NCBI RefSeq assembly: GCF_002892835.1
Contig: NZ_PJMB01000003.1
Span: 310,001 to 374,000, forward strand
DNA length: 64,000 nt
Reading direction: 5' to 3'
From: Arthrobacter sp. AFG7.2
GTDB taxonomy: Bacteria > Actinomycetota > Actinomycetes > Actinomycetales > Micrococcaceae
The notes beneath the pieces were generated by a model that was given only the letters and a program-made list of their open reading frames with translations, had not been told where the DNA came from and ran no database searches. Each line of letters begins with the position of its first letter. Within the stretch, counting starts at the first letter, position 1. Below, one piece after another: positions 5,891 to 29,665 of this stretch. The position numbers were made by a program, and so were the translations under genes.

Positions 5891-6016
5891 GGGAACCTCC
5901 TGCTGCAAGGGCAGATAGTATTTTTGTCTGATGGTCGATCATAATTGTGTGATACAGACCACGTCAATGATCGGGCAGCAGGGCATGCACCCGAAAAACC
6001 AGAAGGAGCCGGGCGG
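5891..6016. promoter_or_regulatory. Divergent promoter/operator region of the importer operon and the ROK regulator
   Basis: The minus strand has a -10-like TACTAT at 5920-5915 that would start the importer mRNA near 5908. Dyads lie just upstream of it: GTCTG (5926-5930) facing CAGAC (5955-5959), and ATCA (5938-5941) facing TGAT (5950-5953). This is where a ROK repressor would be expected to bind. No ROK consensus for this group is known to me, so the operator call is an inference. Confidence 0.4.
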
Positions 6017-7198
6017 ATGAGCCAACAAAGGACGCTCGTCGGCGGCCCGGGCCAACCTCCCGTCGGGCCTGCCACCAGCGCCGGCCACATACTCCAGCTC
6101 CTGCGCTCAAGCCCGGCGGGCTACAGCCGGGCAGACCTGCTTGACATCACCGGCATGGCGCGGTCCACCCTCTATGAGCGGCTGGATGCGCTTTTCGCCG
6201 CCGGCCTGGTTTACGAAGCCACGCCGCTGCGGTCCCAGCGCGGCCGTCCGCCCCGCGCCCTTCGCTTCGATGACCGGGACAAACTGGTCCTCGGCATCGA
6301 GATCGGGCATACCCACGCCGGCGTCCACCTTTTGTCCCTGAGCCGGGACATTGTGGCCTCACGCCGGTTGCCCATTGATATCGGCCAGCCCCAGGAGGAC
6401 GTGGTCAGCAGGCTCATGGAGCAGTCCCGCCAGCTGCTGGACGGGCGCCGGCCGGTAGGAGCAGGAGTGGGGCTGCCGGCCCCGGTGGACCCCCTCCACC
6501 GGCTGGGGCTGGAGCGCACCGTCCTGGCCCACTGGGACCTGCAGCGCCTGCAGGACGTTATGGAGGCAAGCCTCGACTGCCCGGTCCTGCTCGAAAACGA
6601 CGCCCGTTCGATGGCAGTCGGGGAGGTACGTCATCCCTTTGAGTCCCTTGTGGCGGTGAAGGTCAGTACCGGCGTCGGCTCAGGCATCATCGTCCGGGGA
6701 GCCCTGGTCCGTGGAGCGCACGGTGCTGCCGGTGACATCGGCCATGTGCGGGTTCCGGAAGCCGCAGGCCGGCTGTGCCGCTGTGGGAGGGATGGGTGCC
6801 TGGCGGCAATGGCGTCAGGCCGTGCCCTGCTTGCGGCTCCGCAGTTTGCCGCCTACCGGACTCTTCGGCAGCTCGTTGACGCGTATGACAGCGATCCTGA
6901 CGTGCGCCCTGCCGTTGCGGAAGCGGGACGAGTGCTTGGACGCGCGCTCGCAGCGATCATCGGGACGCTCAACCCCGGCCGGGTCGCAGTGGGCGGCCTG
7001 GTGGGCGTGCTCCCGGATTTCCTCCAGGCATGCCGCCGGCAGATCCTTGATGACGCCTTCGAACCCTCTTTGGTGGACCTTGAGGTTGTACCGGCGGACA
7101 GCCGCGCTGCCACCGCTGTTGGGCTGTGCAGGCTGGTGGAGGAGAGCCTCTACGCGCCGGAGCGGGTTGAGCAAATGCTGGTGCAGCAGGCCGGCTGA
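6017..7198 (+). CDS. ROK-family transcriptional regulator of the sugar operon
   Basis: A 393-residue NagC/XylR-like protein: an N-terminal winged helix-turn-helix (about residues 20-80, SAGHILQLLRSSPAGYSRADL..TGMARSTLYERL) followed by the ROK sugar-kinase-like fold. The zinc motif CRCGRDGC is present, with Ala where many members carry Glu after it. The glycine-rich pieces STGVGSGIIV and GAAGDIGH match the ROK signature. The start at 6017 follows AGAAGGAG at a good distance; in-frame codons from 5945 would extend into the operator region. Divergent placement makes it the likely repressor of the importer and hydrolase, released by a sugar ligand. Confidence 0.88.
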   Translation: MSQQRTLVGGPGQPPVGPATSAGHILQLLRSSPAGYSRADLLDITGMARSTLYERLDALFAAGLVYEATPLRSQRGRPPRALRFDDRDKLVLGIEIGHTHAGVHLLSLSRDIVASRRLPIDIGQPQEDVVSRLMEQSRQLLDGRRPVGAGVGLPAPVDPLHRLGLERTVLAHWDLQRLQDVMEASLDCPVLLENDARSMAVGEVRHPFESLVAVKVSTGVGSGIIVRGALVRGAHGAAGDIGHVRVPEAAGRLCRCGRDGCLAAMASGRALLAAPQFAAYRTLRQLVDAYDSDPDVRPAVAEAGRVLGRALAAIIGTLNPGRVAVGGLVGVLPDFLQACRRQILDDAFEPSLVDLEVVPADSRAATAVGLCRLVEESLYAPERVEQMLVQQAG

Positions 7199-7301: not shown

Positions 7302-7832
7302 ATGACCACTTCAACGTTCAATGCCCTCCTGTCCACCCAGATCGGCAACGAGTTTGCCGCCTCGCAGCAGTACATTGCCGTGGCCACCTGGTTCGCCAAC
7401 CAGGACCTCCCGCAGCTGGCGCGCTACTTCTACCGCCAGTCGGTGGAGGAGCGGAACCACGCGATGATGATGGTGCAGTACATGCTGGACCGGGATATCC
7501 CGTTCATCATTCCCGGCGTTCCGGCTGTCCGTAACGACTTCACCTCCGTCACAGAGCCGCTGGCCCTGGCCCTGCAGCAGGAAAAGGAAGTGACCCGCAA
7601 CATCGAGGACCTGTTCCGGGCGGCCCGCGGCGAAAACGACGCCCTGGGTGAGCAGTTCATGCTGTGGTTCCTCAAGGAGCAGGTGGAGGAAGTGGCGTCC
7701 ATGACCACGCTGCTGAACATCGCCGAGCGCGCGGACAACCTGTTCGACATCGAGAACTTTATCGCCCGGGAGACCATCGGCGACGGCGGCCGCGATTCGT
7801 CCGCGCCCGAGGCGGCCGGCGGCGTCCTGTAG
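7302..7832 (+). CDS. Ferritin (non-haem iron storage protein)
   Basis: A 176-residue four-helix-bundle ferritin of the BfrB/Ftn type. Di-iron ferroxidase ligands can be read as Glu17 (GNEF), Glu50 and His53 (SVEERNHAM), with further Glu residues in QQEKE and LKEQVEEVASM. It oxidises Fe(II) and stores it as a mineral core in a 24-subunit shell in the cytoplasm. There is no haem-binding Met at the bacterioferritin position that I can recognise. The last 20 residues are small and flexible. Single gene with its own apparent promoter. Confidence 0.92.
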   Translation: MTTSTFNALLSTQIGNEFAASQQYIAVATWFANQDLPQLARYFYRQSVEERNHAMMMVQYMLDRDIPFIIPGVPAVRNDFTSVTEPLALALQQEKEVTRNIEDLFRAARGENDALGEQFMLWFLKEQVEEVASMTTLLNIAERADNLFDIENFIARETIGDGGRDSSAPEAAGGVL

Positions 7833-7929
7833 CCTGCCCGGGGCTGGCGGTGGTGAGGTTCGGCACCATTGCTGGCCCGCCGTCGTCGTGCGTTGTTACG
7901 CTGGAAGTCAAGGTTCCGCAAACGGGCCT

Positions 7930-7970
7930 CCGGACGACGGTTCAGTACCCGGCACGCGACAAGACTGGCC
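7930..7970 (+). promoter_or_regulatory. Guanidine-III (ykkC-III) riboswitch aptamer
   Basis: The RNA starts CCGGACGA, has GUACCCGG in the middle and GCGACAAGAC near the end, the conserved blocks of the guanidine-III motif in the same order and spacing. The two CCGG runs (7930-7933 and 7949-7952) can form the pseudoknot, and GGTTCAGT (7939-7946) can pair with ACTGGCC (7964-7970), with a U bulge and a G-U pair. AAAGGA, the ribosome-binding site of the following SMR gene, begins directly at 7971, so ligand binding would act on translation. The downstream genes are of the type this riboswitch is known to control. Confidence 0.88.
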
Positions 7971-7982
7971 AAAGGATCTGTC

Positions 7983-8306
7983 ATGCCGTGGTTAATCCTC
8001 ATTCTTTCCGGCGCCCTTGAAGCCGTCTGGGCCGCAGCCCTGCACCGTGCCTTTCAGGCTTCCGGCCGGCGGCGCATCGCCCCCGCCGCCCTCTTCCTGG
8101 TCTCCGTGGCCGCCAGCACGGGCGGCCTCGCCATCGCCATGCAGTCCATTCCCACCGGCACCGCCTACGCGGTGTGGGTGGGCGTGGGCGTGGTGCTGAC
8201 CTCCGCCTACGCCATCGTCACCAAGGTGGAACGCCCGACGGCGGCACGCCTCCTGCTGTTGTCCGGCATTGCCGTGTGCGTGGTTGGCCTGAAGGTGGTG
8301 GCGTAA
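7983..8306 (+). CDS. SMR-family exporter subunit, guanidinium exporter type (first of pair)
   Basis: A 107-residue, four-helix small multidrug resistance protein with the essential membrane Glu at residue 13 (LSGALEAVWAAAL) and the GTAYAVWVGVG loop typical of the SugE/Gdx branch. SMR proteins work as antiparallel dimers; a pair of tandem genes usually forms a heterodimer, as in YkkCD. The guanidine-III aptamer in front indicates guanidinium as the physiological substrate, exported in exchange for protons. The ATG at 7983 is seven bases after AAAGGA. Its stop overlaps the next start. Confidence 0.9.
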   Translation: MPWLILILSGALEAVWAAALHRAFQASGRRRIAPAALFLVSVAASTGGLAIAMQSIPTGTAYAVWVGVGVVLTSAYAIVTKVERPTAARLLLLSGIAVCVVGLKVVA

Positions 8307-8683
8307 TGCTGCAGCGTTCACTCCCCTGGCTGGTGCTCCTGGTTTCAGCAGTCCTCGAAGCCGTGTGGGCCACCGCGCTGGGAATGTCCGACGGGTTCAG
8401 CAGGCCCGGCCCCACCGTCGTGTTCGCGGTCACGGCAACCCTCAGCATGCTGGGCCTCGGCTGGGCCATCCGCACCATACCGCTGGGCACTGCTTACGCC
8501 GTATGGGTGGGCATCGGCGCTGCCCTGACAGTCGCCTGGGCAATGGCCACCGGCGTCGAGACGTTCAGTGTGCTGAAGGTGCTGTTCATCGCCGGGATTG
8601 TTGGTTGCGCCGCGGGCCTGAAGGCACTGCCCAACGGGGCAGACGTCCACGAGCCGGAAACTGCCCGCTCAACCCGCCGCTGA
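8306..8683 (+). CDS. SMR-family exporter subunit, SugE/Gdx-like (second of pair)
   Basis: A 125-residue SMR protein with Glu18 in SAVLEAVWATAL, followed by GMSDGFSRPGPTVV and PLGTAYAVWVGIGAA, which closely follow the Gdx/SugE pattern. About 15 polar residues extend past the last helix. The start overlaps the previous stop (TAATG), so both subunits are made in a coupled way under the same riboswitch. Probable partner of the preceding subunit in a heterodimeric guanidinium/proton antiporter; broad quaternary-amine export is the alternative. Confidence 0.9.
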   Translation: MLQRSLPWLVLLVSAVLEAVWATALGMSDGFSRPGPTVVFAVTATLSMLGLGWAIRTIPLGTAYAVWVGIGAALTVAWAMATGVETFSVLKVLFIAGIVGCAAGLKALPNGADVHEPETARSTRR

Positions 8684-8696
8684 GCTGCGGGCAGTC

Positions 8697-8702
8697 TAGG
8701 CT
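8697..8702 (+). promoter_or_regulatory. -10 element TAGGCT, leaderless kinase transcript
   Basis: TAGGCT is followed by exactly six bases and then the ATG at 8709, so transcription is predicted to start on the start codon. Confidence 0.5.
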
Positions 8703-27601: not shown

Positions 27602-29665
27602 TCAGTTTCCGTTCTCAAGAGGGGCAGAGCTGTCTTTGAGGACCAGGGCGCCGTACGGTTCCAGGGTCAGGTGGGGCCCGTGGGCCTCTCCGGTGAGCAC
27701 GTCCACGGACTGCTCGGTGAGCGCCACGGTGCGTGGTTCCGGGCTGTGGTTCAGCAGGAAGTGGTAGCCGGCGCGGGTGGCGAGTTCGACGTCGTCGGGC
27801 AGCGTTCCTGCCACCGGTGAGGTGATGCGGGCTGCCGCCAGGGCGGTCCCGATGATGCTGTCCAGCGCGGGGCCGGGCAGATCGCAGCCTGCGTACCAGG
27901 CGGTGCCGCGGCCGTGGCTGTTGCGCACGACTGCCGGTTGTCCGGCCAGGGCTCCGGCGGCAAACGTGGCCACGGCAGAAGCGCCGGCACCGTGGAGGCG
28001 CAGGTCCTCGGACCAGACGGAGGCTTCGAGGCCGGCCGGGAACCCGGGGGAAGCGCCGCCCGGACCCCGCTCTGCACCATCGAGGCCCACCGCGCCGGCC
28101 AGCGGGCGCCATTCCTCTCCGCTGACGCCCAGCAGGTCAGCCAGGACCGACGGGAAACGCCCCTGGCGGAGGTGGCCGTTACTGTCCGCCACCCCGGTGA
28201 AGGGTCCGACGACGGCCGTCCCGCCGCGGTGCACCCATCCGGTCAGCGCCCCGGCGTGGTCTTCCTTCAGGAGGAAGAGGCTGGGGACGAGGACCATGTC
28301 GAAACGGTCCAGCGCAGCGGAGGGGTGCACCACTTCGACGGAAAGTCCGCGCCGCAGCAGCGGCCGGTAGTAGGCCTGCAGCTGGTCCAGGACGCCGAGC
28401 CGGTCCGTGGGGCAGTCCGGGGACTCCGCCGCCCACCAGCTGTTCCAGTCGAACAGGATGGCAATCCGGGACGGTGCGGGGGTACCGGCGAGGAGCCGCA
28501 GGTCCTGCAGCCGGGAGCCGAGGTCCGCGACTTCCCGGAACACACGCGTGTCCTCCCCCGCCAGCGGCACCACGGCCGAGTGGAACCGTTCAGCCCCAAA
28601 GGCGGACTGGCGGAACTGGAAGAAGCAGATGCCGTCCGAGCCCCTGGCCAGGGCGGACAGCGAGTCCACCCGCAGCGCCCCGGGTTCCTTGGCACTGTTG
28701 TGGGGCCGCCAGTTCACGGCGGAGGCAGCGGATTCCATCAGGAGCCACGGTTGGCCCCCGGCGAGTCCCCGGCACAGGTCGTGGGTGAGGGCGCCAAGTT
28801 CCCAGGTCTGCGGCTGGGCCGGATCCATGTACCAGTTGTTGCCTACCAGGTCCGTCTCCCCCGCGAAGCTGAAGTAGTCAGCGCCGCGGAAGAACCCCAT
28901 GAGGTTGGTGGTGACCGGGACATCCGGGGAGTGCCGGCGGATGATGTCGCGTTCCGCGGTGAAGAGCTTGAGCAGTGACTCGGAGGTGAAGCGCTTGAAG
29001 TCCAGGACCTGGGTGGGGTTGTGCAGGTACGGCGCCGTCCGCGGCGGCAGGATCTCCTCCCAGGTGCTGTAGCCCTGGCTCCAGAAGGTGGTCCCCCAGG
29101 CTGAGTTCAGGTTCTCGAGGGAGCCGTAGCGGCGCAGCAGCCAGGTGCGGAACGCGCCGGCCGTTTCGTCGTCGTAGCTGATCTGTCCCAGCTCGTTGCC
29201 CACGTGCCACATCACCACGGCCGGGTGTTTGCCGTAGCGCTCCGCCAGCGCTGCGGTAACCTGCCGGGCGGCATTGCGGTACACGGCCGACGACGGCGAG
29301 AACTGGTTGCGCGATCCGTACCACAGCGTTGTCCCGGCTGCGTCCGTGGGCAGGGTGCTGGGATAGCGGTGCCCCAGCCAGGGGGGCGGCGATGCGGTGG
29401 GCGTGGCCAGGCAGACCTTGATGTTGCCTTCCTCCAGCAGGGCAAGGATCCTGTCCAGCCAGCCGAAGTCCCAGGTGCCCTCGGTGGGCTGCAGCCGCGC
29501 CCAGCTGAACACGCCAAGGGTCACCAGGTTAATGCCCGCCTGCTGCATGAGGCGGATGTCCTCGGCCCAGCTTTCCTCCGGCCATTGCTCAGGGTTGTAG
29601 TCGGCGCCGAAGAGCAACCCGGCCTGCTCTGTCACGGCGTTCAGGCCGTGGCTTCGAGAATGCAT
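27602..29665 (-). CDS. GH42 beta-galactosidase
   Basis: A 687-residue family 42 enzyme: LFGADYNPEQWPE at the start of the barrel, acid/base Glu158 in WHVGNELG, nucleophile Glu311 in LLMESAASAVNW, then the trimerisation (Rossmann-like, TRLGVLDQLQAYYRPLLRRG) and small C-terminal domains. It releases terminal beta-galactose; cytoplasmic, no signal. AAGGA precedes the ATG at 29665. It lies divergent from and only 25 bases from the LacI-type regulator, and six bases before the alpha-xylosidase gene, so both are co-transcribed. Confidence 0.93.
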   Translation of the reverse strand: MHSRSHGLNAVTEQAGLLFGADYNPEQWPEESWAEDIRLMQQAGINLVTLGVFSWARLQPTEGTWDFGWLDRILALLEEGNIKVCLATPTASPPPWLGHRYPSTLPTDAAGTTLWYGSRNQFSPSSAVYRNAARQVTAALAERYGKHPAVVMWHVGNELGQISYDDETAGAFRTWLLRRYGSLENLNSAWGTTFWSQGYSTWEEILPPRTAPYLHNPTQVLDFKRFTSESLLKLFTAERDIIRRHSPDVPVTTNLMGFFRGADYFSFAGETDLVGNNWYMDPAQPQTWELGALTHDLCRGLAGGQPWLLMESAASAVNWRPHNSAKEPGALRVDSLSALARGSDGICFFQFRQSAFGAERFHSAVVPLAGEDTRVFREVADLGSRLQDLRLLAGTPAPSRIAILFDWNSWWAAESPDCPTDRLGVLDQLQAYYRPLLRRGLSVEVVHPSAALDRFDMVLVPSLFLLKEDHAGALTGWVHRGGTAVVGPFTGVADSNGHLRQGRFPSVLADLLGVSGEEWRPLAGAVGLDGAERGPGGASPGFPAGLEASVWSEDLRLHGAGASAVATFAAGALAGQPAVVRNSHGRGTAWYAGCDLPGPALDSIIGTALAAARITSPVAGTLPDDVELATRAGYHFLLNHSPEPRTVALTEQSVDVLTGEAHGPHLTLEPYGALVLKDSSAPLENGN

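Follow-up and report, generated by a model that had tools for sequence, protein, structure and literature searches.

Two adjacent SMR genes of Arthrobacter sp. AFG7.2, preceded by a short structured RNA, raise the question of which RNA this is, what the genes behind it export and how the one might act on the other. The locus lies in a window of 64 kb, by which we mean the whole stretch of DNA that was analysed. A preliminary description of this DNA had proposed a guanidine-III riboswitch in front of a pair of SMR exporter genes. This identification was confirmed by a match to the Rfam family RF01763 (50.7 bits), by matches of both predicted proteins to PF00893 (62.2 and 65.0 bits) and by the presence of residues characteristic of the Gdx type. 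In all likelihood, judging from the sequence, the riboswitch controls a two-gene operon encoding a heterodimeric Gdx-type guanidinium/H+ antiporter. The combination of riboswitch and exporter pair is real, well conserved and ordinary for its group, and the literature already describes SMR exporters under guanidine-III control as well as heterodimeric Gdx pairs.

The aptamer and its setting

The covariance-model check that had been proposed for the aptamer gave a result above threshold. Scanning against Rfam identified a match to RF01763 (Guanidine-III) at 7910-7973 on the forward strand, covering model positions 1-67, with a score of 50.7 bits against a gathering threshold of 36 and an E-value of 1.5e-7 (64 kb searched with 4227 families). 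It was the sole gathering-level Rfam match in the whole window. A genome-wide search (4.05 Mb, with the window on contig 17) revealed no second guanidine-III match elsewhere in the genome, and guanidine-I and guanidine-II gave no match across the same genome. Since the RF01763 match starts at 7910, the aptamer begins about 11 bases 5' of the position 7921 given previously and takes in a short 5' hairpin. The leader contains the following parts.

7910..7973 (+): guanidine-III (ykkC-III) riboswitch aptamer, entire Rfam match (RF01763, 50.7 bits)
7915..7926 (+): short 5' hairpin of the Rfam model with four pairs and the loop CAAA (U7915-C7923 region); pairs assigned by eye from the cmscan alignment
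7930..7933 (+): 5' strand of the pseudoknot helix, CCGG (P1 of Huang et al., naming after PMC5696562), from the sequence
7939..7946 (+): 5' strand of P2 (G7939, G7940 and U7942-U7946) with bulged U7941, from the helix reading; bulged in 148/149 parsed genus loci
7949..7952 (+): 3' strand of the pseudoknot helix, CCGG (P1 of Huang et al.), from the sequence
7958..7965 (+): conserved core strand GACAAGAC, the end of which is the beginning of the P2 3' strand; complementary to 7980-7987 at 6/8 positions
7964..7970 (+): 3' strand of P2, ACUGGCC, from the helix reading
7971..7976 (+): Shine-Dalgarno sequence AAAGGA, starting at the base directly after P2
7980..7987 (+): start-codon region GUC-AUG-CC, complementary to the core strand and a possible masking site (sequence and register scoring)

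The H-type pseudoknot, P2 with its one bulge and the conserved ACGA, GUACC and GACAAGAC all fall within 7930-7970. The three sequence blocks named in the preliminary description were found in place (CCGGACGA at 7930-7937, GUACCCGG at 7945-7952 and GACAAGAC at 7958-7965), its CCGG/CCGG pseudoknot corresponds to pairing of 7930-7933 with 7949-7952, and AAAGGA does adjoin the final P2 base at 7970. The position of the aptamer is fixed next to the Shine-Dalgarno sequence and the start codon of the first SMR gene.

The element resembles RF01763 and the riboswitch of T. fusca (5NWQ) in its full-length model match, its CCGG/CCGG pseudoknot and its core of ACGA, GUACC and GACAAGAC, and like the latter it belongs to an actinobacterium and precedes an SMR gene. 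Unlike that of T. fusca, P2 in the window contains a bulged U, and its pairs are weaker; this form is fixed within the genus and often found outside it. In addition, the Shine-Dalgarno sequence follows directly after P2, whereas the 3' end of the T. fusca riboswitch lies 16 nt from the ribosome-binding site (PMC5696562). A simple scan for a promoter identified no sigma-70-like element, and a terminator scan was likewise empty.

Conservation, helix form and linker length

RF01763 was detected in 147 of the 150 genus genomes searched (own genome included), in 166 of the 347 order genomes, representing 60 of 104 genera, and in 38 of 296 phylum genomes, some of which belong to the same genus or order. 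Named loci retrieved with subunit 2 (n=80) contained RF01763 in 67 cases and guanidine-II in two; here the switch was located about 400 bases 5' of the subunit-2 homologue if another SMR gene intervened and about 70 if the homologue was alone. Two SMR reading frames followed the RNA in 145 of 149 genus loci parsed by pattern (150 given), and those scored as single include L247, the sequence of which was cut short, and L213, in which the frames are merged. Parsing by pattern left 22 of 340 loci unparsed. The counts are not independent of one another, owing to overlap between the sets and relatedness among the loci. The nearest named relatives of subunit 2 were from Pseudarthrobacter and Arthrobacter (P. 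oxydans, 88% over 110 residues; Arthrobacter sp. Alg241-R88, 83% over 125 residues), which points to a soil actinobacterium among these genera as the source.

A search for plasmid copies returned seven records partly similar in DNA, none of which covered 80% of 7900-8700. On a Kocuria rosea plasmid (L343), an SMR gene at 27940-28254 on the reverse strand has a guanidine-III-like sequence, recognised by eye, on its 5' side, so the switch and its exporter can be plasmid-borne. In two loci from Microbacterium relatives (L083, 319-365; L117, 2125-2171), guanidine-II replaces guanidine-III before the SMR pair, so that the class of switch has changed on an operon of like make-up. A locus from Propionibacteriaceae (L085, approximately 2140-2185) has an SMR pair for which no RF01763 match at gathering level was obtained, and contains CAAAGACTGACTC and GTC before the ATG; this is perhaps a diverged guanidine-III leader.

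Nucleotides 12-18/35-41 of guanidine-III are termed P2 in the crystal-structure paper (Huang et al., PMC5696562), and P2 of the window reads GG(U)UCAGU/ACUGGCC with a bulged U7941 and a U7942-G7968 pair. The preliminary description had noted a bulge and a G-U pair, both of which exist, in a helix that it called P1 and that is P2 in the naming of that paper. It had also regarded the helix as a natural variant worth recording, and this did not hold: seven pairs with one bulge were found in 148 of the 149 parsed genus loci, with identity in every letter in 133, as against a straight 7-bp P2 in 0/149. Among the best 30 order loci by score, P2 was bulged in 20 and straight in nine; for the named loci (66 parsed of 80 given, some of the same genus) the numbers were 33 and 13. 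With the bulged form present throughout the genus and common outside it, the helix is not peculiar to this locus, and its reading as a special variant was rejected.

The linker between ACGA and GUACC measured 7 nt in 208 two-SMR loci and 6 to 9 nt in singles (L001-L341). After removal of duplicates, of the genus set and of the genus-type loci L062-L087, a 7-nt linker was present in 38/38 pairs vs 36/102 singles. A functional tie between linker length and operon type was rejected, because few linker motifs cover all pairs and the figures ignore ancestry; on the same grounds the 7-nt linker of two-SMR operons is read as probably a matter of shared descent and not of function.

The paired SMR genes

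The two SMR genes and their neighbours are arranged as follows.

5945-7198: ROK-family gene, upstream
7302-7832: ferritin-like gene, upstream
7983..8306 (+), stop included: SMR subunit 1, 107 aa, Gdx-type (PF00893, 62.2 bits; 6wk5_B, E 2e-12; Lys/Arg bias -4)
8306..8683 (+), stop included: SMR subunit 2, 125 aa, Gdx-type (PF00893, 65.0 bits; 6wk5_B, E 2.7e-15; Lys/Arg bias +5)
downstream of the SMR pair: nucleoside kinase-family gene and aldo/keto reductase

The PF00893 cut-off is 23.7. The ATG of subunit 2 overlaps the stop codon of subunit 1 by one base (TAATG), and this spacing (-1) was the commonest among genus pairs (73), followed by +2 (48). From this anatomy, the overlap would couple translation of subunit 2 to that of subunit 1, in which case a single switch at the first start codon would set both halves in equal amounts.

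Both subunits retain residues equivalent to E13, W16, S42, Y59 and W62 of Gdx-Clo as well as the GxG of TM3, the network and motif that make up the Gdx substrate site in Gdx-Clo (PMC9574504). With the NCBIfam SugE/Gdx equivalog NF008512 the proteins scored 69.5 and 63.6 bits, short of the cut-off of 126, and it was still the best family by bits for both; being an equivalog model for one exporter group, it was not taken as defining for Gdx. A pair of drug (Qac-type) exporters that stands behind the switch by chance is a very improbable alternative. The SMR families are alike and both proteins gave weak matches to EmrE/Qac models, but in a PDB sequence search Gdx-Clo (6wk5_B) was ahead of EmrE for both, the best EmrE chain (7jk8_A) reaching 9.5e-7 and 9.4e-6, and the Gdx tryptophan W16 is found in both subunits. 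Further points against Qac-type exporters are the place behind a guanidine switch, kept in 145/149 parsed genus loci, and the fact that another SMR pair of this genome lacks both that tryptophan and a nearby guanidine-III match. The pump behind the switch very probably expels toxic guanidinium.

The other SMR pair of this genome (L376, 1501-2174; contig 17, 218804-219435) has no guanidine-III match nearby. Inspection by eye indicated that neither of its proteins has the Gdx tryptophan and that the first has Ala at the position of the central Glu (ILSAVTAS vs ILTEVTAT), so that only one central Glu is left in this SMR pair.

Lys/Arg bias was calculated with a published formula (PMC9574504). The loops were delimited by aligning the sequences with Gdx-Clo, a control for which the calculation gave -1 instead of 0. 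The opposite values of the two subunits (-4 and +5) are as expected of a fixed antiparallel heterodimer, and paired SMRs are expected to have values of opposite sign that cluster around +4 and -4 (PMC9574504). The first protein was negative and the second positive in 196/196 two-SMR loci scored (208 seen, of which 12 were dropped since no start could be picked), and single-gene loci outside the genus set ranged from -1 to +1 (n=105 scored). At the position of G10, subunit 1 had Gly in all 196 scored pairs, and subunit 2 had Ala in 193 and Ser in three. The window proteins thus share with Gdx-Clo (6WK5/6WK9) the central network of Glu, Trp, Ser, Tyr and Trp and the TM3 GxG in both subunits; they differ from it in having Ala in place of G10 in subunit 2 and in being encoded by two genes, each with a fixed topology opposite to that of the other, where Gdx-Clo has a single dual-topology gene. 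With the paired heterodimeric SMRs covered in a JBC 2022 review they have in common adjacent genes and opposite Lys/Arg bias, and nothing differs beyond the riboswitch and the one-base overlap. Approximately 20% of Gdx are paired and >95% of adjacent pairs are oppositely biased (PMC9574504), figures by which the arrangement in the window is ordinary. The preliminary description had predicted that the 7983 and 8306 proteins form a heterodimeric SMR pair, in agreement with the opposite biases, the conserved Gdx residues and the one-base overlap; the features of the two products fit an obligate antiparallel heterodimer.

A possible route from guanidinium binding to translation

Guanidine-III is described as a translational ON switch with an added role in shielding mRNA from RNase E (PMC12186494), and exposure of the ribosome-binding site was called probable in the crystal-structure paper (PMC5696562). 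Going by this literature, binding of guanidinium would stabilise the pseudoknot and so turn expression on. In the predicted free fold of the window leader, the 3' pseudoknot strand and GACA are placed on the start region (UGUC before and UGCC across the start). The unpaired value of the Shine-Dalgarno sequence changed from 0.52 in the free RNA to 0.04 with the aptamer locked, and the median of 212 leaders from 0.55 to 0.31, in a folding model that omits pseudoknot, triplex and ligand energies. The window leader with P2 enforced folded at -26.2 kcal/mol vs -41.7 kcal/mol for the free fold. In this simple folding, sequestration of the Shine-Dalgarno sequence was not seen, nor its freeing, the induction step proposed in the preliminary description, as the model leaves it no more open once the aptamer is locked.

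The complementarity between GACAAGAC and the start region, which is 7/8 for the consensus at -3..+5 (GUC followed by AUGUC) and 6/8 in the window leader, suggests a different step, namely masking of the start codon rather than hiding of the Shine-Dalgarno sequence. Without guanidine, GACAAGAC would pair with GUC-AUG-UC around the start, leaving the Shine-Dalgarno sequence in a loop, and guanidine would lock GACAAGAC in the pseudoknot and expose the start. We regard this as possible but rather unlikely. In 212 unique leaders (order and named sets) the mean was 6.1/8 Watson-Crick pairs in register -3..+5, with 15 other registers lower. At least six pairs were formed in 165/212 leaders vs 4/97 annotated CDS, and GTC was present at -3..-1 in 131/212 vs 6/97 annotated CDS and 5/123. 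The CDS background came from two Micrococcaceae plasmids (L342, L343), for which 99 of 102 annotated features were used and 97 were usable, two cut features and the plasmid SMR gene being left out. Taking one leader per P2 type, 37/55 had at least six pairs and 30/55 had GTC. The start region folded on the core strand (p>0.3) in 144/212 leaders and in 79/212 once positions -6..-1 were shuffled, and U7984 and G7985 are nearly always paired in the free fold of the window leader. Against masking, the phylum sample (26 loci, of which 11 lacked a scorable start or aptamer) had a mean of 4.27 pairs and GTC in 5/15, so that its support is only partial, and Streptomyces-like long leaders do not fit. 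Of 12 SMR loci without RF01763 that were inspected (a thirteenth, L091, near a contig end, was left out), at least three also have GTC before ATG (L085, L116, L141), and a search for covariation between core strand and start-region flank within leader types gave no signal beyond independence. In the folding model, locking the aptamer raised the median AUG openness of the 212 leaders from 0.34 to 0.57 but opened the AUG by >0.3 in only 66/212 and closed it in 11, the window leader moving from 0.34 to 0.42; free AUG openness was barely altered in shuffled leaders (0.37 vs 0.34), and the window leader pairs at 6/8, not 7/8. Start-codon masking is not described in the parts searched of the ykkC-III/guanidine-III literature, including PMC2864571, PMC7266159 and PMC7736828; no claim is made that it is unpublished.

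A further alternative, that the RNA mainly shields the mRNA from RNase E with translation secondary, appears highly unlikely: guanidine-III also protects mRNA according to a review (PMC12186494), but the tight spacing of Shine-Dalgarno sequence and start across the genus leaders suggests a translational role. Control of a Gdx pair by a guanidine-III switch remains the preferred reading, and the exporter genes are best named a Gdx pair, not drug efflux. For compact leaders of Micrococcales and some relatives, it can be proposed tentatively, and with more doubt than confidence, that GACAAGAC is an anti-start element, such that the ligand-binding nucleotides would themselves serve as expression platform and the sequence around the start, codon 2 included, would have been shaped to match them. 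If true, masking would give guanidine-III switches a concrete expression platform that is easy to mutate.
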